NCBI GenBank assembly: GCA_958296055.1
Contig: CATQHS010000001.1
Span: 1,128,277 to 1,192,276 of the forward strand
Length of the DNA stretch: 64,000 nucleotides
Direction of reading: 5' to 3'
From: an uncultured Acidimicrobiales bacterium
GTDB lineage: Bacteria; Actinomycetota; Acidimicrobiia; Acidimicrobiales; Aldehydirespiratoraceae
The notes beneath the pieces are model-generated. The model made no database searches. It saw only the letters and a program-made list of their open reading frames with translations, and was not told the DNA's origin. Positions 11,712 through 62,526 of this stretch are shown here, in pieces; within the stretch, counting starts at the first letter, position 1, and each line of letters opens with the position of its first letter. Both the position numbers and the translations under genes were made by a program.

Positions 11712-13631
11712 CTACCAGTACTCCTCGTAGTGGATGTTGCCGGGGCGGTCCCGGCGGTCCAGGGAGAAGCCCATGCGCTCCAAGACGGCCACCACCCCCT
11801 CGGGCTCGGGGTAGGCGAGCCCGTCGGGGGTCTCGGTCGGCAGGCCGATCATGGCCGGGTTGCCGCAGCAGAAGACATGGGTCGTCTGCGGGTCGAGGAC
11901 GACGCCGAACTCAGAGGAAAGCTCCCCGCTGCGCAGCACGTCCTGCAGATAGCGCTTACCCACACTCGGCTCCCGGGTGGGCAGGGGCAGGTAATGATAG
12001 TTCGGGTAGCGGGACTCAAGGGTCCGGTGTCGCTCCAGATAGCCGAGGTCGGCCCACTGCCGCACCGAGACCGCCGACACCACCGAGCCCATGTGCCCCT
12101 TGCGCAGCAGCTCCACGATCATGGAGTTGTGGGGGGCCTCGCCGGTGCCGGTGCCCAAGAACACGACGGTGGCGGCGGGGTCGGTCACCGCGGCCAGGGT
12201 GTAGCGGCCCGCCACCTTGGGGCCCAGATAGAGGCGGTCGCCGGGCCGTTTCAGGGCCAGCCGGGGGGTGAGGGCAGACACGTTGGCCCCGTCGGGCCGG
12301 ACCAAGACGATGTAGAACTCGAGCTCGTCGCTGCGGTGGGCGTCGGCCAGGTACCCGTGCTCGTCGAGGATCCGGCTCGATATCGAGTAGGACCGGCGGA
12401 TCAGCCGGTCCCAGCGGGCGTCGAGGTCGCGGTCCTCGGCATCGTCGGACCTGGGCTCCCAGAACCCCAGGCCCAGCGAGGCGTACTGGCCGGCCAAGTA
12501 GTCGGTGTCGCCCCGGTCGGGGCGGACCCGCAGCACCCACAGGTCGGAGTGGGCCGGCTCGAAGTGGGTGATGACGGCGTTGTAGTGCTCGGCCCGCAGC
12601 TCGGCGATGGCCCCCCGGTGGCGGACCCGGCGCACGATGGACGGCGCGGGCGGGACCAGGTTCAGCTCGGGGAAGCAGTGCTCGGCGATGGCCACCCCGA
12701 TCCGGTGGCCCGGCGCGGTGGGAACCGGTCCCGGATCAGTCCCGAGCGTCTTCCCCCCCAACGGTCCGGCCTCAGAACTCTCAGCCGCCCCGGCCACCCC
12801 GGGCGGCCCCGAGGCTTCGGGCTCGCCCAGGAACCAGACCCGGCCGGTGGCCAGAGCCTCGGGGGTGCAGCCAACCTCGGCCGGAGTGAGGGTCCGGCGC
12901 AGGGAGGCGAAGATCACGTGGTCGAACTGCAGGTCGGGGGTCCGGCGGTCGCCGAAGTAGGCCATCGGGTATCCGCCCACGTCGCCGATGTGCTCGGGCA
13001 CGGCCCGGTACAGCAGCGTGGCCCGGCGCTCGCGCTCCAGGCGGCGGAGCATGTTGTCGCCCGCGGGCGACAGCTTGGTCGGGTCCATCCCCCCGGCGGC
13101 CAGCACCACCCTGGCCCCGGCCGCGCAGGCGGTGGCGGTGTACTCCACCGCGTGGTCGGTGTAGCCCACGATCATCACGTCGTCCTCGGGGCCCACCGGC
13201 ACCTCGTCCACGTGAACCCGGTCGGTCACCTCCACCGGGATGGGCGGCCGCCAGTCTTCGGCGGTGCGGCGGTCGGCGATCAAACAGACCCGGGTCCGGT
13301 AGCTCGATTTGGAGGTGTTCACCACCACCAGGTCCTCGGGGCCGTCGCCCCGGGGGCCGTCGACCTGGGACCTGTCTCCGGACCCGTCCCCCTGGGACCC
13401 GTCCCCCTGGGACCCGTCGCCGGGGCCAGCACCGCCGAGGGCCTCCACCGAGACCACCGGCTCGCCGTAGCCGATGTCCAGCTCGGACTCCCCCACCAGC
13501 TCGGGGAACACCACCGCGTGGCCGGACTCAACGATGCGGATCCGGCCCAGCCCGGAGCGCAGCGACGACACCGCCACCGACAGCCCCCCGGCGGTGCCGC
13601 CCACGATCACGATGTCATAGACGCCGATCAA
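11712..13631 (-). CDS. FAD/NAD(P)-binding oxidoreductase with C-terminal ferredoxin-reductase module
   Basis: This 639-residue protein has two parts. The N-terminal half starts with a dinucleotide-binding strand, YDIVIVGGTAGGLSVAV (residues 5-21), and resembles pyridine-nucleotide-disulfide or lysine-oxygenase-like flavoproteins. The C-terminal third is a ferredoxin-NADP+ reductase: RSYSISSRI for FAD near residue 418, FLGTGTGEAPHNSM near 494, and VFCCGNPAMIG near 589. The fusion suggests NAD(P)H-driven electron delivery to an unknown acceptor. About 35 residues between the halves (near residue 85) are low-complexity GDGSQGD repeats. The assigned start is TTG 13631, the end point of a stop/start chain from copA. 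I do not recognise a named enzyme. Confidence 0.78.
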   Translation of the reverse strand: MIGVYDIVIVGGTAGGLSVAVSSLRSGLGRIRIVESGHAVVFPELVGESELDIGYGEPVVSVEALGGAGPGDGSQGDGSQGDGSGDRSQVDGPRGDGPEDLVVVNTSKSSYRTRVCLIADRRTAEDWRPPIPVEVTDRVHVDEVPVGPEDDVMIVGYTDHAVEYTATACAAGARVVLAAGGMDPTKLSPAGDNMLRRLERERRATLLYRAVPEHIGDVGGYPMAYFGDRRTPDLQFDHVIFASLRRTLTPAEVGCTPEALATGRVWFLGEPEASGPPGVAGAAESSEAGPLGGKTLGTDPGPVPTAPGHRIGVAIAEHCFPELNLVPPAPSIVRRVRHRGAIAELRAEHYNAVITHFEPAHSDLWVLRVRPDRGDTDYLAGQYASLGLGFWEPRSDDAEDRDLDARWDRLIRRSYSISSRILDEHGYLADAHRSDELEFYIVLVRPDGANVSALTPRLALKRPGDRLYLGPKVAGRYTLAAVTDPAATVVFLGTGTGEAPHNSMIVELLRKGHMGSVVSAVSVRQWADLGYLERHRTLESRYPNYHYLPLPTREPSVGKRYLQDVLRSGELSSEFGVVLDPQTTHVFCCGNPAMIGLPTETPDGLAYPEPEGVVAVLERMGFSLDRRDRPGNIHYEEYW

Positions 13632-13688
13632 GCTGAAGTCATCCCCGGATCACCCCCGGTCGGCTTGGCGGATCACCAACTGGATCAC
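13628..13688 (-). other. Three-step micro-ORF relay between copA and the oxidoreductase
   Basis: The copA TGA (13687-13685) overlaps GTG 13688, which reads [12 protein letters not shown]-stop. That TGA overlaps GTG 13653 (VIRG-stop), whose TGA overlaps ATG 13642 (MTSA-stop), whose TGA overlaps TTG 13631, the oxidoreductase start. The element TGATCC recurs three times, suggesting slippage. Every overlap is 4 nt. Confidence 0.55.
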
Positions 13689-15943
13689 GGGGCCGCGGCC
13701 CGGCCCCGGCATCCCCGGAAGCGGCGCAGCCGGAGGCTGTTGGACACCACGAACAGCGACGACAGGCCCATGGCCGCGGCCGCCACCATGGGGTCGAGGG
13801 CCCCGGCCGCGGCCAGCGGGATGGCGGCGGCGTTGTAGGCGAAGGCCCAGACCAGGTTGACCTTGATGGTGGCCAGGGTCCGCCGGGCCAAGTCGATGGC
13901 GTCGACCACGGCCCTCAGGTCGGCGCCCACCACGGTCAGATCCGACGCCTCGATGGCCACGTCGGCCCCGGCGCCCAGTGCGATGCCCAGATCGGCCCGG
14001 GCCAGGGCGGGGGCGTCGTTGACGCCGTCGCCGACCACGGCCACCCGCCGGCCTTGGGCCTGGAGCTCAGCCACCACCGCCTCCTTGTCGGCCGGAAGAA
14101 CTTCGGCGATCACCTCGGCGATCCCCACTTCGGCCCCGACCGCGGCGGCCGTGGCCCGGTTGTCGCCGGTGAGCAGGGTCAACTCGAAGCCCCGGTCGCG
14201 CAGAGCGGCCACCGCCTCGGCCGAGGTCGGCTTCACCGCGTCGGCCAGCGCCACCACCGCCTCCGCGGCGGCCCCCCGGCCCACCAGCACCGCGGTGCGC
14301 CCAGTCTTCTCGGCCGCGGCCGCGGCGGAGGCAACCTCGGCGGGCACGGTGTCGAACAGCTCCCGGCGCCCGACCCGCACCCCGGTCCCGTCCACCCGGC
14401 CCACCACTCCCAGGCCGGGCCGGTCCTCGAACTCCTCGACGGTCCCCGCCGCCGGCCACCGGCGGGCGACGGCCTGGCCGACGGGGTGCCCGGACCGGGA
14501 CTCCAGGGCGGCGGCCAGCGCCCCCAGGTCGTCCAAGTCATGGTCGTCCAAGTCGTCGTCGGCGCCGGGGCGGACGGCGCCGACGACCTCGAGGCGGCCC
14601 TCGGTGACGGTGCCGGTCTTGTCCAAGACGACGGCGTCGATCCGCCCGGAGCTCTCCAGCGCTTCGGCTCCCTTGACGATCACGCCGAGCTGGGCCCCCC
14701 GGCCGGTGCCCACCATGACGGCCAGCGGGGTGGCCAGGCCCAGCGCGCACGGGCAGGAGATGATCAGCACCGCCACCGCGGCGGTGAACGCCTCGTCAGG
14801 CGAGCCCCCCAGCACCAGCCATCCGGCCATGGTGACGGCGGCGATGCCGATCACGACCGGCACGAAAACGGCTGCCACCCGGTCGGCCAGCCGCTGCACC
14901 GCGGCCCGGCCCCCCTGGGCCTCGGCCACCAGCCGCACGATCTGGGCCAGAGCGGTGTCGGCGCCCACCCGGGTGGCCTCGACCACCAGCGAGCCGCTGG
15001 CGTTGACTGTGGCCCCGATCACCTCGTCGCCCTCGGCCACGTCCACCGGGACGGGCTCCCCGGTGATCATGGAGCAGTCCACGGCCGAGGCGCCGCTCAC
15101 CACCCGGCCGTCGGTGGCGATCCTCTCCCCCGGCCGCACCACGAACCGCATGCCGACGGCCAAGTCGGCCGCATCCACATCGCGCCCGTCCACCAGGCGG
15201 GCCTGGGCGATCCCCAGGCCGGCCAGAGCCCGCACCGCGTCGCCCGAGCGGCGGGTGGCCCGAGCCTCGAGCCACTTGCCGGCCAGGACCAGGGTCACGA
15301 TCATCGCCCCGGTCTCGAAGTAGACGGGCCCGCCGGCCGTACCGCCGACCAGCACGACCGCCGACCACAGCCAGGCCGCCGTCGTGCCCAGCGACACCAG
15401 GGTGTCCATGGTGGCGGGGCGGCGGAGGTGGCGGAGGGCGGCCAGGTGGAACGACCGGCCCGCCCCGAAGATCACCAGGCCGGCGGCGGCGGCCGCGAAC
15501 CATCGCCAGCCCTCGAACCGCAGCGGCGGGACCATGGAGACGGCCGCCACCGGCAGAGTCAGGGCCAGGGCGGCGACGAACCGGCGGTGCAGCTCGGCCG
15601 TCCGGCGCTGCTGGAGCTCCTCGGCGTCGGCCTCGTCGGGGGCTTCGTATCCGGCCCCGGCGACCGCGGTCCGCAGGTCGGCGACGGCGACGGCCGGGTG
15701 GTGCCAGACGACGGCCCGGCCTGCGGCGAAGTTCACCCTGGTCTCGTCCACCCCGTCCAGGGCGGTCAGCGCCTCGGCCACCCGGCCCGCGCAGGCCCCG
15801 CACGACATGCCCGCCACCGCCAAGTCGCTGCGAACGACCCCGCCGGTCGCGGCCGGGCCGGGCGCGGCGGCAGTCCCATCGCCCTTCCCATCGCCCCCTT
15901 GGCCATCGCGGTCGACAGCCGTTTTGCCGGACGCGTTTCTCAC
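13685..15943 (-). CDS. copA: Copper-translocating P-type ATPase CopA
   Basis: This 752-residue P1B-type ATPase exports Cu+ across the cytoplasmic membrane. One N-terminal heavy-metal domain has [10 protein letters not shown] (Cys48 and Cys51). The membrane CPC metal site lies in [12 protein letters not shown] near residue 396, the phosphorylated Asp in DKTGTVTEG near 441, the SGHPVG nucleotide motif near 486, and the [16 protein letters not shown] hinge toward the C-terminus. The start is GTG 15943 with no Shine-Dalgarno sequence; a TAGGCT box lies six bases upstream, so the message is probably leaderless. It is divergent from hisC across only 22 bp. No CopZ or CsoR gene is adjacent. Confidence 0.95.
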
Positions 15944-15949
15944 CGTCTC

Positions 15950-15959
15950 AGCCTAGTGT
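15950..15959. promoter_or_regulatory. Overlapping divergent -10 boxes of copA and hisC
   Basis: The whole copA-hisC gap is 22 bp. TAGGCT (minus, 15955-15950) ends six bases before the copA GTG. TAGTGT (plus, 15954-15959) ends six bases before the hisC ATG. The two hexamers share the TA at 15954-15955. Both genes would be leaderless, with their -35 regions inside the neighbouring coding sequence, and could not be initiated at the same time. Confidence 0.5.
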
Positions 15960-15965
15960 TGGGCC

Positions 15966-17081
15966 ATGGCACCCGAAGGCCGCGAAGGTCGAGTCCGGCC
16001 CTCGCCCCGGCTGGCCATAGGGGCCCTGCCCGCCTACCGGCCGGGGCGGTCGGCCATCCAGGCCAACCGGGACCACAAGCTCACCGACTCCATCAAGCTG
16101 GCCTCCAACGAGAACCCGTACCCGCCGGTGCCGGCCGTGGCGGAGGCGGTCAGCCAGGCGATCGGGTCGGCCAACCGCTACCGCGACCACCGGGCCGTGG
16201 ATCTGCGGGAGGCCATCGCCGGTTGGACGGGCGTGGACGCGGACCGGGTGACGGTGGGGGCCGGGTCGGTCGCGCTCATGTACCAGCTCGCCGTGGCCTA
16301 CCTGGATCCGGGCGACGAGGTGGTCACCCCGTGGATCTCCTTCGAGGCCTACCCCATCATGGCCCAGATCATGGCCGCGGCCCTGGTGAGGGTCCCGCTC
16401 GCCGACCACGCCTTCGACCTCGACGCGGTGGCCGACTCGGTGAGCGAGCGAACCAAGATGGTGGCCCTGGCCACCCCTAACAACCCCACCGGCACGGCCC
16501 TTTCCACCGGCCAGATCCGCCGCCTGCTGGCTCGGGTCCCCGACGACGTGGTGGTGCTGGTGGACGAGGCCTACCGGGAGTTCGCCGACCCGGCCCTGGG
16601 CGACCCGGTAGCCGACCTGCTCGGCGACCACGCCAACGTCATCGTGACCCGGACCTTCTCCAAGGCCTACTCGCTGGCCGGGGCCAGGGTCGGCTACGCC
16701 ATCGCCGACCCCGAGATCATCGCCGCCGTGGACCACTGCCTGTTCCCGTTCAACGTCAACGGCCTGGGCCAGGCCGCGGCCCTGGCCGCGCTGGGGGCCC
16801 TCGATGAGACCCAGGACCGGGTGGCGGGCCTGGTGGTCGAGCGGGACCGGGTGGCCGCCGCGCTGAGAGACCGAGGGTGGGCGCCGCCCGACTCCCAGGC
16901 CAACTTCGTGTTCCTGCCCGCCGGGGACCGAGCCGACGACGTCTACGCAGGCTTGGAGCGCAAAGGGGTGGTGACCCGCCCGTTCACGGGGTGGGGCATA
17001 CGGGTCACCACCGGAACCCCGGCCGAGAACGACCGGTTCCTGGCCGCCCTAGACGAGGTGGCCCCCGAGCCCCCGGGCTGA
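15966..17081 (+). CDS. hisC: Histidinol-phosphate aminotransferase
   Basis: This 371-residue fold-type I PLP enzyme has SIKLASNENPYPPVP at its N-terminus, NNPTGTALS for the PLP-contacting Asn, VDEAYREF for the Asp-x-x-Tyr pair, and TRTFSKAYSLAGARVGYA with the Schiff-base lysine near residue 232. HisC transaminates imidazole-acetol phosphate with glutamate in histidine synthesis. Close relatives act on phenylalanine or other aromatic keto acids, and no other his gene is nearby, so an aromatic-amino-acid role is possible. ATG 15966 is probably leaderless. Confidence 0.9.
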   Translation: MAPEGREGRVRPSPRLAIGALPAYRPGRSAIQANRDHKLTDSIKLASNENPYPPVPAVAEAVSQAIGSANRYRDHRAVDLREAIAGWTGVDADRVTVGAGSVALMYQLAVAYLDPGDEVVTPWISFEAYPIMAQIMAAALVRVPLADHAFDLDAVADSVSERTKMVALATPNNPTGTALSTGQIRRLLARVPDDVVVLVDEAYREFADPALGDPVADLLGDHANVIVTRTFSKAYSLAGARVGYAIADPEIIAAVDHCLFPFNVNGLGQAAALAALGALDETQDRVAGLVVERDRVAAALRDRGWAPPDSQANFVFLPAGDRADDVYAGLERKGVVTRPFTGWGIRVTTGTPAENDRFLAALDEVAPEPPG

Positions 17082-48793: not shown

Positions 48794-50755
48794 ATGGATA
48801 CCAGCGATCGTGAAACGAAGCTGACACTGCTAGAAACAAGCTTTCCAGCGCTCACTGTTTCACTCGTAGCTGAAGCTGATCGACGGGGTAAAGATCCGGC
48901 CTACGCAGCCCACCGTTGGTGGGCTCGCCGCCCACCAACCATCATGCGCGCTCTTCTCTTGGCAGCAATACTGGAAGCCGATACTAGCGAGGAAGAATTC
49001 TGGACGCTCTACGCGAGCAGCGAGAGATCCTTAACAGGCATACAAGTACATGACCCATTCATGGGCGGCGGGTCAACTTTGATAGAGGCATCGAGACTTG
49101 GAGCTAAAGTCAGTGGAACTGATGTTGATCCGATAGCACGGACAATTGTTGCCCATGGTCTCCAACCTGCTAGCCAATCCGAAGTAAGTGAGGCCGGTGA
49201 AGCACTCATGTCTTTCCTGCGTACTCACTTCTCAGTACTATACCCTGGTCAAGGTGGGGAACCTCTGCACTGGTTTTGGATATCTCTTGTCACATGTCCT
49301 AGATGCCAAGAGACCGGTCCTCTATACCGGTCTCACCTTTTAGCTCGTGACTGTGGGAAGCTAGGTGCCGTTGTACGTGATCAAACTGCCACCGTTTTTG
49401 ACCCTAATACATTTGAACTCCATTACCTAGAATCACCTAAATGTGAATCTTTTAAAGATTCAATAGGGGGAAAAATATACATCAACCATGGGACATTTAG
49501 GGATCGCAAATACCATTGCCCAAAGTGCGGAGAAAAATCCAATCACCGTGAACTCCAAACAGGTTCAGCACCACAAAAAATGATTGCTGTTGAACGAACT
49601 TCAACTAAATCTAGGCGTAAACTATACGAACCTCAGACCGAAGATCTAGCGGCAATCGATACGGCTAATGCGATGCTTGATGAGCCACCCGTGCGGTTGC
49701 ATCTGCCTACAGATGATTTTAAAGCCAATCGATGCGATCCTCGTCCGCGTAGTTTCGGTATGACAGCCGTAAAAGATCTATTTACATCTAGGCAATTGCT
49801 CGTCTTGGGTGCTGCGCATGCTTGGGTCCAAGACAAAAATCTTTCACCTTCAACTAATCTGGCTATTAGACTAATACTTTCTAATGCACTCGCAAATAAT
49901 AATCGGCTTTGCTCATACGCTACGGATTATGGTCGTCTCTCTGCTCTTTTTAGCATCAGAGGATACTCTCTCCCAGCTTTAGCTGTTGAGTTGAACCCGC
50001 TTCATAGTGATGGTGGTCGCGGAACACTCCAGCAATGCCTCAACCGCGTGACTCGCTCTGCTGCAACTAAAGTGCGCCGATCAACCTGGGAAACTAAAAC
50101 TCAAAAAACTGCATTTAAACAGTTCAACTTCATTCGAGAGCAGATATCAGTTGATATACAATGTTCATCTGCTGCAGACGCAAGGGTGAAACCTGGTGTT
50201 GATCTCCTTGTTTTCGACCCACCATATTACGATTATATCCTATATGAAGAGTTAGCAGAACTATTTAGAGCGTGGAATACAGATCTTGCATATAGCGGAC
50301 AAACATTGCAATCATCGATATCTGAAGATGAAAGTGACTTCGGTGTGGCTCTTGCAGATTGCCTTCGTCCATCAATTCTAGCTAGAAACTCTCGCTATCC
50401 AATTGTATTCACATATCATTCATCCAGAGAAGCGGCTTGGAAAGCGATCGGAGTAGCCCTTGATGAAGCTAAACTTAGAGTGACAAGTATATGGCCGATA
50501 CGTAGCGATGGACACATGGGTCACCACAGTTATCCTGGAAACTGTGAGTGGGACGTAGTGGTAGTTTGTCGGCCTCTTGATGAGACAACTACTGCCAAGT
50601 CACCCGACTTGTCTCATCTGTGGAATACCTGTCTAGGAGATTTCAACGTGAACGTTGCTGATAGAAGAAATTTCTTATACGCTCATCAAATGGCATCACC
50701 CAGATTCGGCCATATCAGTAGCTACACAAAGAGCTACACAAAGCAGGAGACCTAA
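48794..50755 (+). CDS. DUF1156-type DNA methyltransferase with zinc-ribbon insert
   Basis: This 653-residue protein opens LETSFPALTVSLVAEADRRG and AHRWWARRPP, the DUF1156 signature. The AdoMet loop is VHDPFMGGGSTLIEA (about residue 86), and motif IV is LVFDPPYYDYILYEEL (about 473), whose DPPY predicts N6-adenine or N4-cytosine methylation. Between them, CPRC (about 168) and CPKCGEK (about 241) form a zinc ribbon that could be part of target recognition. It is the first gene of the operon, followed with zero spacing by the ParB-like gene. Codon use is AT-rich, pointing to transfer. Confidence 0.85.
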   Translation: MDTSDRETKLTLLETSFPALTVSLVAEADRRGKDPAYAAHRWWARRPPTIMRALLLAAILEADTSEEEFWTLYASSERSLTGIQVHDPFMGGGSTLIEASRLGAKVSGTDVDPIARTIVAHGLQPASQSEVSEAGEALMSFLRTHFSVLYPGQGGEPLHWFWISLVTCPRCQETGPLYRSHLLARDCGKLGAVVRDQTATVFDPNTFELHYLESPKCESFKDSIGGKIYINHGTFRDRKYHCPKCGEKSNHRELQTGSAPQKMIAVERTSTKSRRKLYEPQTEDLAAIDTANAMLDEPPVRLHLPTDDFKANRCDPRPRSFGMTAVKDLFTSRQLLVLGAAHAWVQDKNLSPSTNLAIRLILSNALANNNRLCSYATDYGRLSALFSIRGYSLPALAVELNPLHSDGGRGTLQQCLNRVTRSAATKVRRSTWETKTQKTAFKQFNFIREQISVDIQCSSAADARVKPGVDLLVFDPPYYDYILYEELAELFRAWNTDLAYSGQTLQSSISEDESDFGVALADCLRPSILARNSRYPIVFTYHSSREAAWKAIGVALDEAKLRVTSIWPIRSDGHMGHHSYPGNCEWDVVVVCRPLDETTTAKSPDLSHLWNTCLGDFNVNVADRRNFLYAHQMASPRFGHISSYTKSYTKQET

Positions 50756-52078
50756 ATGGATATTGAAGAACGGACTACTCACATAGCTAACGCACCCGAA
50801 GCCGGAAAAGAGCGACTATGGGCACTAGGTGAGTGGAAGAATGTACCTGTAAAGCGCGTTCATAGCGACGCTCTAATTTTAAACATTAATAACAGACGTT
50901 TTGCAGCGGAGCGAAAGCTATATGAAAAGCAATTAGGTCACTCACTGGACTCAGAAAATAGTTATACAGATGCACTAAGCCTTGAAGCTATTCTCCTTGA
51001 TCGAGACCTTCATGTAGTCGGCGACCAAGTAGTTGGCAAACCTAATAAAGACCATTTGGCGCTCCGTCAAGACTGGCAAAACCGGAAGCAAGAATCGCCT
51101 TTCTGGATACGTCCCGATGGAACGGTTCGCAATGGTAATCGTCGGCTAGCAATGCTCCGACGCCTCCAACGTGAAAAGGGTTCAGAAGGCAACGAATACG
51201 TAGATGCAGTCGTCCTTGTTCCGACTGAAATAAATGAGATAGCAATGTTTGAGATGGAGCAACGCGAACAATTAACCGAAGACTATAAGGTTCGTTATAC
51301 AGATATAAACCTTCTTCTAGCCATAAAAGATGCCGCCGATGACAAAAGAGTAGACTGGCACGATGATGACAATATTGTCAAAGTAGCCGGTGAACTCCAG
51401 CATGTCATGCGTAACAATCCTAATTACGCAATCGTCCAACTTTATGCCATAAAATATATGGATGAGTACCTCTCTGATCTTGGTGAGGAAGGTAGCTATG
51501 ACAAACTGATAGGTCAGATTGAACGCTTCCGTGACGTAGGCCGGATTATGCGCCAAATTAGGCTGGACAACTCAAATCGTGAACCCACGATGCTTAATGT
51601 TTTATTTGCCGCCATTAATGCTGGACTGACACACCTTGAAATCCGTAAAGTCCGTACCTTGTTCAATGATGATCACGACGCTTTCGATCGTCTTGCAGCC
51701 GACATTGCTGACGCAGAGGGTGAATGGGATATACAGATTGAAGAAGGAACGTTAGGAGATCCTGAAGTGGTCGGTATCGAAAGCACCGATCCTGAAGGGG
51801 ACGGTAACCAACCTGAACTTCCTGGCCCGGTTGTGACTAACTATCCAAAGAATGATGTCAAAGCGGCTTTCGAAGATGCTATAGATAGGCATCAGGCATC
51901 TCAAACAAATGATATTTTAAAGACAGTTAAAGAGATTAATAATCGTCTCGAAGTTCTTGCTAATTCAACCACAAATACCTTGGCTAATGAACTATCAGAT
52001 AACAGTACATCTGAACTTCGCAATGCAGTCAACTCAATGCTTGAATGGTTCACAGAGTATCAATCATCACTGAGGTGA
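50756..52078 (+). CDS. ParB/Srx-fold protein
   Basis: This 440-residue protein has the ParB-like nucleotide-binding segment VRNGNRRLAMLRRLQREKG near residue 123 (G-x-R-R pattern), preceded by VPVKRVHSDALILNINNRRF. An acidic linker (DPEGDGNQPELPGPV, about 340-360) and a coiled-coil-like C-terminus (NDILKTVKEINNRLEVLANS) follow. ParB-fold proteins use CTP or ATP; here the role may be DNA loading, switching or regulation. No ParA partner is present, so plasmid partition is unlikely. The start follows the previous stop without a gap, and the end overlaps the helicase start. Confidence 0.76.
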   Translation: MDIEERTTHIANAPEAGKERLWALGEWKNVPVKRVHSDALILNINNRRFAAERKLYEKQLGHSLDSENSYTDALSLEAILLDRDLHVVGDQVVGKPNKDHLALRQDWQNRKQESPFWIRPDGTVRNGNRRLAMLRRLQREKGSEGNEYVDAVVLVPTEINEIAMFEMEQREQLTEDYKVRYTDINLLLAIKDAADDKRVDWHDDDNIVKVAGELQHVMRNNPNYAIVQLYAIKYMDEYLSDLGEEGSYDKLIGQIERFRDVGRIMRQIRLDNSNREPTMLNVLFAAINAGLTHLEIRKVRTLFNDDHDAFDRLAADIADAEGEWDIQIEEGTLGDPEVVGIESTDPEGDGNQPELPGPVVTNYPKNDVKAAFEDAIDRHQASQTNDILKTVKEINNRLEVLANSTTNTLANELSDNSTSELRNAVNSMLEWFTEYQSSLR

Positions 52079-54021
52079 GTACAGCTAACGCCTACCTTGA
52101 TGTTGAAGGCTCAGACATCATAGTCACAGGGTCAACTCAACTCCATAAACGATCAACCCGCCGGTTCTTCCGCATAATCCTCGGAGCCCACCTAACGGAC
52201 AACGGATGGCAGGTGCCGGTTCGCGGCAACCGACCACAAGATGTTGTAGTTCGCATTAACAATTTTCTGATATCTGAAGGTTTTGAGACTACACGAAGCG
52301 AGATAGCTGAGCGTAGTGTGATACTTGCCTTTGAGCGCCAGCGCAGCATTGAGCGAGCAAGAACCGCATCGTCCGCGTGGAAAAATGGTCATTCGACGAT
52401 TGATGACAACCAAGTATCAGCTCAACTAGACAACCTCGGCTGGCAACCAGAACGACGGCTCTACCCCCATCAGCTTCGCAACGTTGGACATGCACTTGTA
52501 GCAGTCAACCAAGCGAACTTCTCGGTCCCAGGAGCAGGTAAAACCGCCACAGCCCTTGCCGTCGCGCTAATTCGTTTCAAAGCGGCGATAATTGACACTG
52601 TTGTAGTAGTTGGTCCTCTTGCATCTTTCAAACCGTGGGAGTCGGAAACACGTGCCGCAATAGAATCTCAATTGATTACTCGTCGAGTAATCGGGCAGGC
52701 ACATCATCGCCGTAATTCTTACCGAAACGTCACTCGAGGAGAACTCCTTCTCCTGAGTTATGCAACAGCAGCCAGCGACCGGTCTGTCATTATTGAAATG
52801 TGCAAGCGGCTCAATGTTATGTTGATTATTGATGAATCACACCGCATAAAACGTTTCAAGGGAGGAGTGTGGGCACCAGCACTCATGGAAATCGCGGAAT
52901 TCGCACGTGTTCGTATGATTCTATCTGGAACTCCCATGCCCAACAGTGTACTAGATTTGTACAGTCAATTGAATGTACTTTGGCCAGGCGGTCTCCTCAC
53001 AGGTAGTCGGACTGACTTTGCTAATCGCGCTGAGCGATCATTCACTAGTCTTATGCCAAAGATTTTGCCGTTCACTATACGCACAGCTAAATCTGAACTT
53101 GGTTTGAATCCATACTCTATTAAGTATCATAATGCACCAATGACCGGTACTCAAGCTGATATATATCACCTTATCGCTCGCCGTTTGCGAGATTATATTG
53201 AAGATGCTAACACTTGGGAGGATAAGATAGATGCATTACGCAGAGCCAAGCCAATGCGGCTCCTTCAAGCAGCCACAAACCCAGATCTTCTCAATCATAA
53301 AGATGATAATTTAAATTTACCTCGTATCACAAATGCTAGTCCAACACTTATGGAACGACTAGTCCGCTTCGTCGAAACTAGCCAGCCAGCCAAATCATTA
53401 GTAGCACTTGATATAATCGAAGATCTCACGGCGGCTGGCAATAAAGTAGTGTGTTGGAGCAACTTTCTACGAAATCTCGATTATTTTAGTTATCTCGTAC
53501 ATGAGGAACTTGGACTCATGGTGTTCCAAGTAGATGGACGAGTTCCGACTGGAGATGATCCGCGCTACGACCGAGCAGAGGCTGCTGTTGCTGAAGACGA
53601 CACTCGTGAGCGTCGCATTGAGAAATTTTTGCAGTTTGATGGACCAGCCATTCTTGTAACTAATCCAGCTACTTGTTCAGAATCTATCTCACTGCATCAA
53701 GCGTGTCATCATGCTGTCTATCTTGATCGAACTTATGATGCTGCATTATTTCTCCAGTCAATAGATCGCATCCACCGTCTCGGCCTTAGTCCTAAAACAG
53801 ATGTTATAATCCATATTATCCAAGCTTCTATTGGCAGTGAAGATACTATAGATCACTTGGTCGACGTTTCTCTTCTAGGCAAACAAGACAACATGGAGCA
53901 GCTATTGACCGGTGCCGAAATTAATCCACTTCACCAAGACGTGTCTGATACGGAAGGTACACGGCATGATTTGGAAGAATTATTGAGATACTTAGTTGGT
54001 GAAGATATGGAAGATGTCTGA
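52075..54021 (+). CDS. SNF2-family helicase/translocase
   Basis: This protein is 648 residues from GTG 52075, which overlaps the previous stop as GTGA; ATG 52045 would add ten residues. After an unassigned 140-residue N-terminus come Walker A SVPGAGKTATALA (about 149), VVVGPLASFKPW, the DESH box LIIDESHRIKRFKGG (about 250), motif III LSGTPMPNSVLDLYSQL, and in the second RecA domain VTNPATCSESISLHQ and QSIDRIHRLG (about 560). It is related in general type to DISARM DrmD-like helicases. Expected activity is ATP-driven movement on duplex DNA. Confidence 0.86.
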   Translation: MSTANAYLDVEGSDIIVTGSTQLHKRSTRRFFRIILGAHLTDNGWQVPVRGNRPQDVVVRINNFLISEGFETTRSEIAERSVILAFERQRSIERARTASSAWKNGHSTIDDNQVSAQLDNLGWQPERRLYPHQLRNVGHALVAVNQANFSVPGAGKTATALAVALIRFKAAIIDTVVVVGPLASFKPWESETRAAIESQLITRRVIGQAHHRRNSYRNVTRGELLLLSYATAASDRSVIIEMCKRLNVMLIIDESHRIKRFKGGVWAPALMEIAEFARVRMILSGTPMPNSVLDLYSQLNVLWPGGLLTGSRTDFANRAERSFTSLMPKILPFTIRTAKSELGLNPYSIKYHNAPMTGTQADIYHLIARRLRDYIEDANTWEDKIDALRRAKPMRLLQAATNPDLLNHKDDNLNLPRITNASPTLMERLVRFVETSQPAKSLVALDIIEDLTAAGNKVVCWSNFLRNLDYFSYLVHEELGLMVFQVDGRVPTGDDPRYDRAEAAVAEDDTRERRIEKFLQFDGPAILVTNPATCSESISLHQACHHAVYLDRTYDAALFLQSIDRIHRLGLSPKTDVIIHIIQASIGSEDTIDHLVDVSLLGKQDNMEQLLTGAEINPLHQDVSDTEGTRHDLEELLRYLVGEDMEDV

Positions 54022-54983
54022 TGAACTTCACACCGGATTGGTTCATAGCTGATCGTGTCCGTCGATTGAATAAGCTGATAAGATTTTTACCTAGAATTTC
54101 ACAAGGTATTGGACGTAATCGACTCCTGTTAGATCTTAAGTACTATCTTGACGGTCCACGACACGAACTACCGCAATTGATTGATTTACTCGGAACACTT
54201 GGCATACTCAGTATTCATAACACCCGTGTACGGCTTAGCCGGAAAGGACAACGCTTTGCTACCCTAAATGATGCTAATGCACGACAAGAACTTGCAGAGC
54301 TGATTATCCAGTCAGGCTTTCTACACACACAAGTAAGGTTTTTACATACTCAGGTACAGGTTTCTACTATCAACGATTATATACGAATCCCTCTTAGTCC
54401 TCTGCGTCGTTCCGCTCCTCAACTTTTAGGTCTCTTTCATGCCTGGCCAGGTATAGTTGGAACTTCATTTGTTGAGCTACCACAATCATTATATCTAACA
54501 CTTGAGACTCCATGGAGTCTAACCCCACTTCCCACTTCTGATGGTGGCACAAGGAAAGCCGTAGGATCACGAGGTGAGGCATATAGTTACCATTATTTGA
54601 GACTGCAATCAACCAGCCCAACTGCAATCAATTGGGTAGCTCTTGACGACGATGGTCTAGGCTATGATATTGAAGACCGTAGTATAGGATTCGTACGTAT
54701 AGAAGTGAAGGCAAGTCAACAGGCTGTGGTTAGGTTTTTCTTCTCCGAGAATGAATACAAAGTAGCAAATCACAATCCTAACACTTATCAAGTGCATTTC
54801 TGGGGAGGAGTAAATCTCAACCGCGATCCTAATAGCGAGTTCGCTATACTACGAGACCAAGGTTTCCCCATCATATTCACCGATATGGCCGCTCATTTAG
54901 AAGACGGAAGACTTAAGGCAGTACCTAACGGGTATAGAGTGACTCTCGGGGATACATATTTTTGCGCTGATCTGACGCCTTAG
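54021..54983 (+). CDS. DUF3883 nuclease-like protein
   Basis: This 320-residue protein has an N-terminal winged-helix-like part (LPQLIDLLGTLGILSIHNTR, about 45-75). The C-terminal DUF3883 domain has GEAYSYHYLRLQS near 183, GLGYDIEDRSIGFVRIEVKA (Asp near 214 and Glu-Val-Lys near 228), and FFSENEYKVANHNPNTYQVH. The D...EVK arrangement is that of a PD-(D/E)XK nuclease. ATG 54021 shares its A with the helicase stop. It is the last gene of the operon and the likely effector nuclease (inference). Confidence 0.8.
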   Translation: MNFTPDWFIADRVRRLNKLIRFLPRISQGIGRNRLLLDLKYYLDGPRHELPQLIDLLGTLGILSIHNTRVRLSRKGQRFATLNDANARQELAELIIQSGFLHTQVRFLHTQVQVSTINDYIRIPLSPLRRSAPQLLGLFHAWPGIVGTSFVELPQSLYLTLETPWSLTPLPTSDGGTRKAVGSRGEAYSYHYLRLQSTSPTAINWVALDDDGLGYDIEDRSIGFVRIEVKASQQAVVRFFFSENEYKVANHNPNTYQVHFWGGVNLNRDPNSEFAILRDQGFPIIFTDMAAHLEDGRLKAVPNGYRVTLGDTYFCADLTP

Positions 54984-54999
54984 ATTCCAGATGGCTTTA

Positions 55000-60636: not shown

Positions 60637-61085
60637 TGGCGGATCCGTCCGGCCCTTCGGCCGTCGTCTCAATCGGCTACGAGCAACGCACCGTTGAGGA
60701 CTTGGTCACGCTCCTGCAGCGCCACGGGGTGGCCGTGCTCGTGGACGTCCGCCTCAACCCGATCTCGCGCAAGAAGGGCTTCTCAAAGAAGGCGCTGGCC
60801 CTGGCCCTGGCCGATGCCAGCATTGAGTATCGCCACGAACGCGATTTGGGGAACCCCAAGGACAACCGCGATCCCTTCCGGAGGGGCCTGCGGTCGGCCC
60901 GAGACCGCTATACCAACCATCTCCTTAACGGTGCCTCGGCCGCCTACGCCGACATCGTGAGACTCGCGCGCTCCACCCGGGTTGCCCTGCTCTGTTATGA
61001 GCGCAACCACCGCTCCTGCCACCGCTCCTGCATTCTCGAATCGGCCCAGAGCGAGCATCCCGATCTCAGCATCCTGGAACTCTGA
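60633..61085 (+). CDS. DUF488 family protein
   Basis: This is a 150-residue protein from GTG 60633 or ATG 60636. It has the DUF488 signature: VSIGYEQRTVEDLVTLLQ, VLVDVRLNPISRKKGFSK, then YRHERDLGNP, and LLCYERNHRSCHRS with conserved Cys and His. DUF488 proteins are of unknown function and often accompany DNA-modification or mobile genes. It is followed after one base by an AT-rich gene of unknown type. Confidence 0.85.
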   Translation: MMADPSGPSAVVSIGYEQRTVEDLVTLLQRHGVAVLVDVRLNPISRKKGFSKKALALALADASIEYRHERDLGNPKDNRDPFRRGLRSARDRYTNHLLNGASAAYADIVRLARSTRVALLCYERNHRSCHRSCILESAQSEHPDLSILEL

Positions 61086-61086
61086 A

Positions 61087-61914
61087 ATGCCTCCGACCGT
61101 GGAACTATCGGTGATGATTCTGGTCAAGGCCGCGCCGGTCCTAACCTCTGAACTCAAAGAGAACATGTGTGTTGCAGCGATGCGACTCGGACCTGACCCT
61201 GAATGGATACGTCTTCACCCGATTCCCTTCCGAGATCTCGAAGATGATTCCAAGTTCCAGAAATATCAAGAGATAAAAGTTCAGATAATAAAGCCTAAAA
61301 CAGATCGCAGACCCGAATCATGGACTCCTATCGAAGGGACAATCCAATTGGGTCAACGGATCGGAACTGATAAAGATTGGGCGATTCGACGCGCGCGTAT
61401 TACCAGCTTAGGAGAAAGAACCATGTGTGACTTGATTGAACGCAATCGATCAAGAGCCAGTCCCGATACTCCATCGCTTTCAGTAGTTCGAACCGCAGAT
61501 ACGCCTGAACTGGTCATTACGAGACGAGAACAAGAAAAGATTGATCTATGGAATAATCGAGCAGCAGCTATGGCAGCGCGATCATCACTATTTGATAATT
61601 TAGATAATAGAAGAAATGTATATAAGATGTGTCCATGGAGATTTCGCTATCGCTATCAATGTCTAAAGGATAACTGTCCAGGACACTTTCAAACTATAAT
61701 CGACTGGGAAGTCGTCGCTTTATGGCGCAATATTAATCATTTTGATAATTGGCAAGAGCGGATGAGACAGAAGCTTGTTAACACACTCTGGGCAACAAAT
61801 AGAGATACCATGTTGTTCGTAGGTAATATGGAACAACACCCCCAAAGCTTTCTCATTCTTGGCATATTCTGGCCGCCAAAAACTTCTTACGTGCATCAAG
61901 CTTTTGATGTCTAG
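61087..61914 (+). CDS. Hypothetical AT-rich gene coupled to DUF488
   Basis: This 275-residue protein starts at ATG 61087. The first 30 codons are GC-rich like DUF488; the rest is clearly AT-rich. LSVMILVKAAPVLTSELKENM is followed by RLGPDPEWIRLHPIPFRDLE, KVQIIKPKTDRRPESWTPIE, MCPWRFRYRYQCLKDNCPGH (two or three Cys, perhaps metal-binding) and LFVGNMEQHPQSFLILGIFW. I do not recognise a Pfam family. The pairing with DUF488 suggests a two-gene module acquired by transfer. Confidence 0.66.
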   Translation: MPPTVELSVMILVKAAPVLTSELKENMCVAAMRLGPDPEWIRLHPIPFRDLEDDSKFQKYQEIKVQIIKPKTDRRPESWTPIEGTIQLGQRIGTDKDWAIRRARITSLGERTMCDLIERNRSRASPDTPSLSVVRTADTPELVITRREQEKIDLWNNRAAAMAARSSLFDNLDNRRNVYKMCPWRFRYRYQCLKDNCPGHFQTIIDWEVVALWRNINHFDNWQERMRQKLVNTLWATNRDTMLFVGNMEQHPQSFLILGIFWPPKTSYVHQAFDV

Positions 61915-62526
61915 TTATAAGTTCGCGTGAGGTTGTTAGCGCGTGATGCGGGCGGGTCGCCGACTGCGGTGTGGTGTCGGTGGCAGTTGTAGTCACAGAT
62001 CCAGCGTTTGAGGCGGATGCGCCGGTCGGTTTCGGATCGGAAGCGCCGGTTGTAGAGGAATTCGTCGCTGAGGGTGCGGTTGAAGCGCTCGGCTTTGCCG
62101 TCAGTCGGGGCCGGTAGGGGCGGGTGCGCAGATGGGCGATGCGTCGCTGGGCGAGCAGCTCCGCGAAGAGCCCGGAGCAGAAGTTGGCCCCGTTGTCGGC
62201 CATCACCGCGTCCACCGCCATGTCGTTAGACCAGAACCAGTCCTGGGCCCTGGTCCAGAACCCGGCCAGGGTGGCGGCGGTCTCGTCGTCGCAGGCCTCG
62301 ACATAGGCGACCCGGGAGTAGTCGTCGACGGCGACGTGCAGATAGGTGTACCCGCCCCCGGCGCCGACCTCTCATAGCGGCGGATCACCCGCCCGGTCGG
62401 GCGGTCGATGACATCGAGCCGGTTCAGCCCGTGGCGGCGAAGGACCCGCCACACCGTCGAGGCCGCCACCCCGTTGGTACACCACCACACTCGCACAGGG
62501 GGCTCACCCCATCGCGCTGCTACCAA
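61911..62526 (-). pseudogene. IS481-type transposase remnant
   Basis: Read with two frame changes it gives an IS481 integrase core: STVWRVLRRHGLNRLDVIDR; after a shift near 62370, GYTYLHVAVDDYSRVAYVEA and VMADNGANFCSGLFAELLAQ; after a second shift near 62112, TDGKAERFNRTLSDEFLYNR and WICDYNCHRHHTAVG to the stop. All three DDE residues remain, but in three frames, and the N-terminal helix-turn-helix is missing. Its TAG stop shares the CTAG palindrome with the stop of the convergent gene. No intact terminal repeats were identified. Confidence 0.76.

Follow-up and report, generated by a model that had tools for sequence, protein, structure and literature searches.

A candidate bidirectional promoter for two putatively leaderless mRNAs in the 22-bp gap between copA and hisC of an uncultured Acidimicrobiales bacterium

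The divergent copA and hisC genes and the gap between them

The window analysed here (the whole stretch of 64,000 nucleotides from an uncultured Acidimicrobiales bacterium) contains two divergent genes that lie almost back to back. On the minus strand, copA (13685..15943) encodes a copper-translocating P-type ATPase whose N-terminus carries a single HMA domain; it is recognised by the Pfam HMA, E1-E2 and HAD families and by TIGR01511 (537 bits, cut-off 397). On the plus strand, hisC (15966..17081) encodes histidinol-phosphate aminotransferase, for which both NF002878 and TIGR01141 score above cut-off (294 bits against 277 for the latter). The copA ORF opens with GTG at 15943 and the hisC ORF with ATG at 15966; an in-frame TAG at 15954-15956 makes this ATG the first possible start of the hisC ORF. 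Between the two genes lies an unstranded intergenic gap of 22 bp (15944..15965), a proposed bidirectional promoter whose geometry recurs across the family (see below).

Read directly, positions 15941-15968 are CACCGTCTCAGCCTAGTGTTGGGCCATG, which confirms the 22-bp divergent gap with overlapping -10 boxes described in the initial annotation. The copA box, TAGGCT (15950..15955, minus strand), stands six bases before GTG, and the hisC box, TAGTGT (15954..15959, plus strand), six bases before ATG; the TA base pairs at 15954..15955 are common to both, each box opening with these two bases on its own strand. The shared bases and the six-base spacers had been given exactly. Opposite-strand -10 elements that share base pairs are the mark of a bidirectional promoter, and TANNNT about six to seven bases before a start codon is that of a leaderless gene; both are present here, the latter with a spacer of six at copA and at hisC alike. 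The centre of the gap is a palindromic core, ANNNTANNNT, of which the actual copy is AGCCTAGTGT. Inspection by eye found no GGAGG-like stretch within the 22 bp. The mRNAs of both copA and hisC probably lack a 5′ leader, and if both transcripts begin at their start codons, the start sites are 23 bp apart.

The upstream contacts of each promoter would have to fall inside the opposite gene, as had also been proposed. Counting a 17-bp spacer, the -35 place for hisC would be ACGCGT within copA (15931..15936, plus strand) and that for copA would be CTTCGG within hisC (15973..15978, minus strand); neither hexamer resembles TTGACA. We rejected a sigma-70 promoter whose -35 element could be recognised, a sigma-70 scan having returned no match.

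Other features of the window were recorded alongside this locus. By eye, positions 13360-13420 within an oxidoreductase-like ORF (11712-13631) hold short tandem repeats resembling GGGACCCGTCCCCCT. GC content falls from about 0.70 to 0.43-0.49 over 6 kb at 49000-54999, a block that is probably acquired DNA, and a second dip, to 0.47, occurs at 61000-61999.

Leaderless-type boxes in the same genome and in relatives

We assessed how often TANNNT precedes start codons in 464 kb of the window's genome, made up of the window itself and twenty 20-kb stretches, in which 359 genes were called and 347 best starts inspected. The motif occurs at spacers of 6, 7, 8 and 9 bases before 18, 17, 5 and 5 of the 347 starts, respectively, and in 15 cases summed over the twenty spacers from 10 to 29, giving a background of about 0.75 per position. 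Spacers 6-7, which account for 35 of the 347 starts, are thus sharply enriched, and a box exactly six bases before the start is found at about 24 times background (18 vs 0.75). By this excess, roughly 96% of TANNNT boxes at a spacer of six would be leaderless promoters.

For the same gene pair in other genomes, HisC was searched for in 100 genomes (this one and 99 relatives), all of which gave some match, and 49 orthologous loci (L007-L055) were examined beside the window's own. At 12 of the 49, all in the sister genus g5, copA is divergent from hisC and adjoins it; L018 was excluded from box measurement, its copA-hisC interval being 852 bp long with two inserted genes (L018:786-1450; a nucleotidyltransferase/HepT-like pair, toxin-antitoxin-like by Pfam names). 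Every one of the remaining 11 has TANNNT seven bases ahead of the ATG of copA and CAGACT 6-7 bases ahead of the start of hisC, and in several g3 genomes hisC also has [CT]ANNNT at a leaderless-type distance. Conservation of the 22-bp gap, which the initial annotation had put forward as a check, was not found: the 22-bp form is absent from all 11 relatives measured, in which the gap spans 100-124 bp and the -10 boxes are separated by 75-98 bp. The overlap of the boxes was seen in one genome, the single member of its genus among those searched, and because the relatives carry leaderless-type boxes on both genes but keep them 75-98 bp apart, the overlap is, by sequence comparison, peculiar to the window's lineage.

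The window's gap was also considered as a shortened, alignable version of the relatives' intergenic DNA, and this was rejected, as local alignment, made for 6 of the 11 relatives, scored no better than shuffled sequences. Upstream of copA in g5 (L007-L011, L013-L017 and L020), a CGGGAATATC-like block is kept about 17-18 bp before the -10 box; lying at the -35 position, it is possibly a -35 element or an operator. No such block was seen in the window.

These results bear on whether copA as well as hisC uses the gap. It is possible, though we think it unlikely, that the gap serves as a leaderless promoter for hisC only and that the copA box arises incidentally from symmetry, copA being either transcribed from inside hisC or translated from TTG at codon 41, from GTG at codon 43 or after an assembly frameshift. 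In its favour, the 36 codons of copA that form an N-terminal extension ahead of the HMA domain are less coding-like than the rest (GC3 of 0.78 for codons 1-36 vs 0.96 for codons 38-300), a gene caller using codon scores preferred codon 43 to GTG 15943 as the start, and the copA of relatives begins about nine codons before the conserved segment, as opposed to 36 in the window. Against it, GTG 15943 is the sole in-frame ATG, GTG or TTG before codon 41, and the next candidates, at codons 41 and 43, stand at the very beginning of the HMA domain (Pfam 41-100), which favours GTG 15943 as the likely true start of copA; the strong enrichment of TANNNT at exactly six bases and the leaderless-type copA box in 11 of 11 relatives measured likewise speak for a promoter on the copA side. 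The extension itself (15836-15943) contains repeated GGCGATGGG-like units and is far longer than the N-termini of relatives; it may be former intergenic DNA taken into the ORF.

Recurrence of the 22-bp geometry in the family

We searched 51 family genomes for the full geometry (CAYN6-ANNNTANNNT-N6RTG), using the reversed pattern as a control. With spacers of 6/6 there are 177 sites vs 67 in the control, and with spacers of 7/6 the core occurs 264 times vs 141, totals that include chance sites and are not independent across related genomes; the control suggests that roughly two fifths of the 177 are chance. In the same 51 genomes, neither the core with spacers of 9/9 (33 vs 38 control) nor an 18-bp register, CAYN5-TANNNTA-N5RTG (54 vs 76 control), is enriched; single conserved sites of the 18-bp register do occur. 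Two non-overlapping boxes two bases apart, a 26-bp geometry, are rare (13 vs 4 control), and a phylum-wide scan of 119 genomes gave a weaker excess than the family (234 vs 164 control).

To place these sites with respect to genes, 80 of the 177 were fetched, 4 near contig ends were dropped and the remaining 76 were classified by their flanking ORFs: coding-like ORFs flank 33 of them on both sides and 24 on one, and 19 on neither. For the 9/9 control, of which 31 of 33 sites were fetched, the corresponding numbers are 8, 12 and 11, and seven of the eight both-sided sites are, by eye, copies of two conserved g5 sites, the eighth being from the window's own genome. The 33 both-sided 22-bp sites form 15 groups by eye, and Pfam was run on one representative from each of ten of them. 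The flanking genes are functionally unrelated pairs: TauD and an ABC ATPase; leucyl/phenylalanyl-tRNA transferase and a weak methyltransferase match; a methyltransferase and peptide deformylase; a luciferase-like enzyme and a lysine-decarboxylase-like protein; PNPOx and CrcB, at a site common to two genera; a metallo-beta-lactamase fold and a GHMP kinase; an aminotransferase and an amidase; a P450 and a glutamine amidotransferase; and other pairs besides. Across five recurrent groups (25 sequences, some from close relatives), the six core positions left free by the pattern are invariant in 27 of 30 cases and spacer positions in 33 of 60. Within the family, the 22-bp geometry is found again at orthologous positions, flanked by unrelated genes.

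Related arrangements were noted in passing. A 17-bp CAY...RTG gap with a TANNNTA core stands ahead of an Mrp/NUBPL-like P-loop NTPase gene in one g5 and one g8 genome (L302 and L303), with look-alikes in many g5 and some g8 genomes; its partner is an HTH protein in g8 and a very short ORF in g5. A 26-bp double-box gap with TAGCTA in the middle (L308, L309) recurs in several genera of the family; at L308 its neighbours are an endonuclease III-like gene and an acetyltransferase.

The recurrence between unrelated genes bears on a further proposal of the initial annotation, that initiation at one gene excludes initiation at the other and so couples copper export to HisC. Read in this way the overlap is a regulatory switch, in which initiation at one gene shuts off the other and the two are expressed in opposition, and we regard it as quite improbable. 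Copper induction is expected to act through CsoR or CueR; the genome gave no CsoR match, as compared with matches in 6 of 14 control genomes, and its two CueR-like matches both fall far below cut-off. Nor do relatives that retain the gene pair share a coupled geometry: with -10 boxes 75-98 bp apart in all 11 relatives measured, it is not conserved, and the other 22-bp sites lie between unrelated genes. On these grounds we reject a functional copA-hisC coupling as the cause of the geometry. The exclusion itself is sterically sound and to be expected for start sites 23 bp apart, and a study of bidirectional promoters in E. coli (PMC12825309) reports that a strongly activated promoter can repress its divergent partner. 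The same study, however, places repression only under such strong activation and describes the basal activity of five promoters as too low for competition; between copA and hisC, competition would probably not arise at basal activity, and the coupling drawn from the exclusion is not supported.

Within the window's own genome, support is thinner. Among 613 CAY-N22-RTG pairs in the 464-kb sample, ANNNTANNNT is central in one, that of copA/hisC, and the full 22-bp pattern occurs twice in the whole genome vs four times for the reversed control, giving no enrichment; support consequently rests on the position of the boxes before real gene starts and on related genomes. In this sample 41 divergent pairs were called, the smallest called gap measuring 38 bp; the copA/hisC gap was itself called wrongly as 148 in this census because the caller misplaced the copA start. 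Three further candidates with coding-like ORFs on both sides were found in the genome: a 17-bp gap with a TACGGTA core between AllG-like and AIRS-related ORFs (L300, G000:C1:980846-980868), a 23-bp gap between cupin and PhyH genes (L297) and a 28-bp gap between redoxin and acyl-ACP thioesterase genes (L243). That neither the copA nor the hisC box is a promoter would fit the own-genome count, which is not above control, and the 0.19 such gaps expected by chance in the 464 kb, but is scarcely credible when both boxes stand at the enriched spacer before two real genes and the family-wide excess appears at 6/6 with none at 9/9.

A shared -10 core and its relation to known promoters

The explanation we favour, and hold to be probable from sequence evidence, is that the 22-bp gap acts as a bidirectional promoter, belongs to the class with start sites 23 bp apart and gives rise to two leaderless mRNAs. 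The single palindromic core would provide the -10 element for either gene, the common TA pair giving the first two -10 bases of either promoter on opposite strands. RNA polymerase would bind in either of two orientations, with its spacer and -35 contacts within the coding sequence of the opposite gene, and transcription would begin at the first base of GTG (copA) or of ATG (hisC), each mRNA being translated without a leader. The two orientations should be mutually exclusive physically; at ordinary activity, copA and hisC would probably be expressed independently and at modest levels. The observations that carry this reading are the geometry of the sequence, the enrichment of TANNNT at the right distance, the separate leaderless-type boxes of the relatives and the family-wide enrichment of the geometry.

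On the same reading, the overlap would have been derived in the window's lineage from two separate leaderless promoters, and the arrangement would represent compaction, not a regulatory link. Comparable switches separate other, unrelated gene pairs of the family, so the 22-bp switch looks more like a compact design in general use than like a dedicated tie of copper export to amino-acid synthesis. For the wider proposition we see even chances: that double-leaderless bidirectional promoters are a recurrent class in this family of Acidimicrobiia, in which the ANNNTANNNT core sets start codons 22-23 bp apart and is kept at orthologous places, the 23-bp register prevails over the 18-bp register, and separate promoters of the copA/hisC type have collapsed onto this geometry by compaction.

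If the favoured explanation is correct, promoter symmetry alone can fix the spacing between two coding sequences, and a whole regulatory region can amount to one polymerase footprint, with all upstream contacts in the neighbour's codons. It would also offer a simple sequence signature by which divergent double-leaderless promoters could be recognised in any leaderless-rich genome, a means of correcting start-codon annotation and, in the gaps of 100-124 bp in relatives and 22 bp here, a natural series for testing promoters that have been pushed together.

Bidirectional promoters and leaderless genes are each already known separately. In the open-access literature searched, no paper was found to describe a shared -10 element that holds the two start codons at a distance of 22 bp; an earlier paper introducing bidirectional promoters lay outside this search and might mention cases. 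Warman, Grainger and colleagues have described bidirectional promoters in E. coli and further prokaryotes (PMC12825309, PMC10268837). These resemble the copA/hisC gap in lying between divergent genes and in sharing -10 elements by symmetry. Start-site separation in E. coli is most commonly 18 bp, with 10 and 23 bp also common (PMC12825309), and the 23 bp expected for copA/hisC if both mRNAs are leaderless matches one of these three values. Unlike its E. coli counterparts, the copA/hisC core has the minimal TANNNT form, and both mRNAs would be leaderless, which would fix the start codons 22 bp apart; in addition, start codons in the Acidimicrobiia family show no enrichment of the 18-bp register that is commonest in E. 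coli.

Divergent promoters with overlapping RNA polymerase sites are also reported for the EcoRV restriction-modification system (PMC5333194), which differs in that a dedicated C protein controls it and binds to its intergenic region. A further likeness is to the leaderless genes of Actinobacteria, in which TANNNT stands upstream of the start codon (PMC3160421, PMC3898074); the copA/hisC boxes agree with these in their leaderless distance and in the lack of a -35 consensus. For M. tuberculosis, the published work reports TANNNT upstream of 73% of primary start sites, gives no -35 consensus as found, and calls closely juxtaposed divergent promoters common (PMC3898074). In that species, prpD/Rv1129c is a divergent pair with both mRNAs mapped as leaderless (PMC3898074), but its start sites (1254630 and 1254510) are 120 bp apart by the table coordinates and its promoters do not overlap, whereas the copA and hisC boxes do. 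An ordinary actinobacterial leaderless gene has one TANNNT promoter; the copA/hisC gap would hold two, interlocked.
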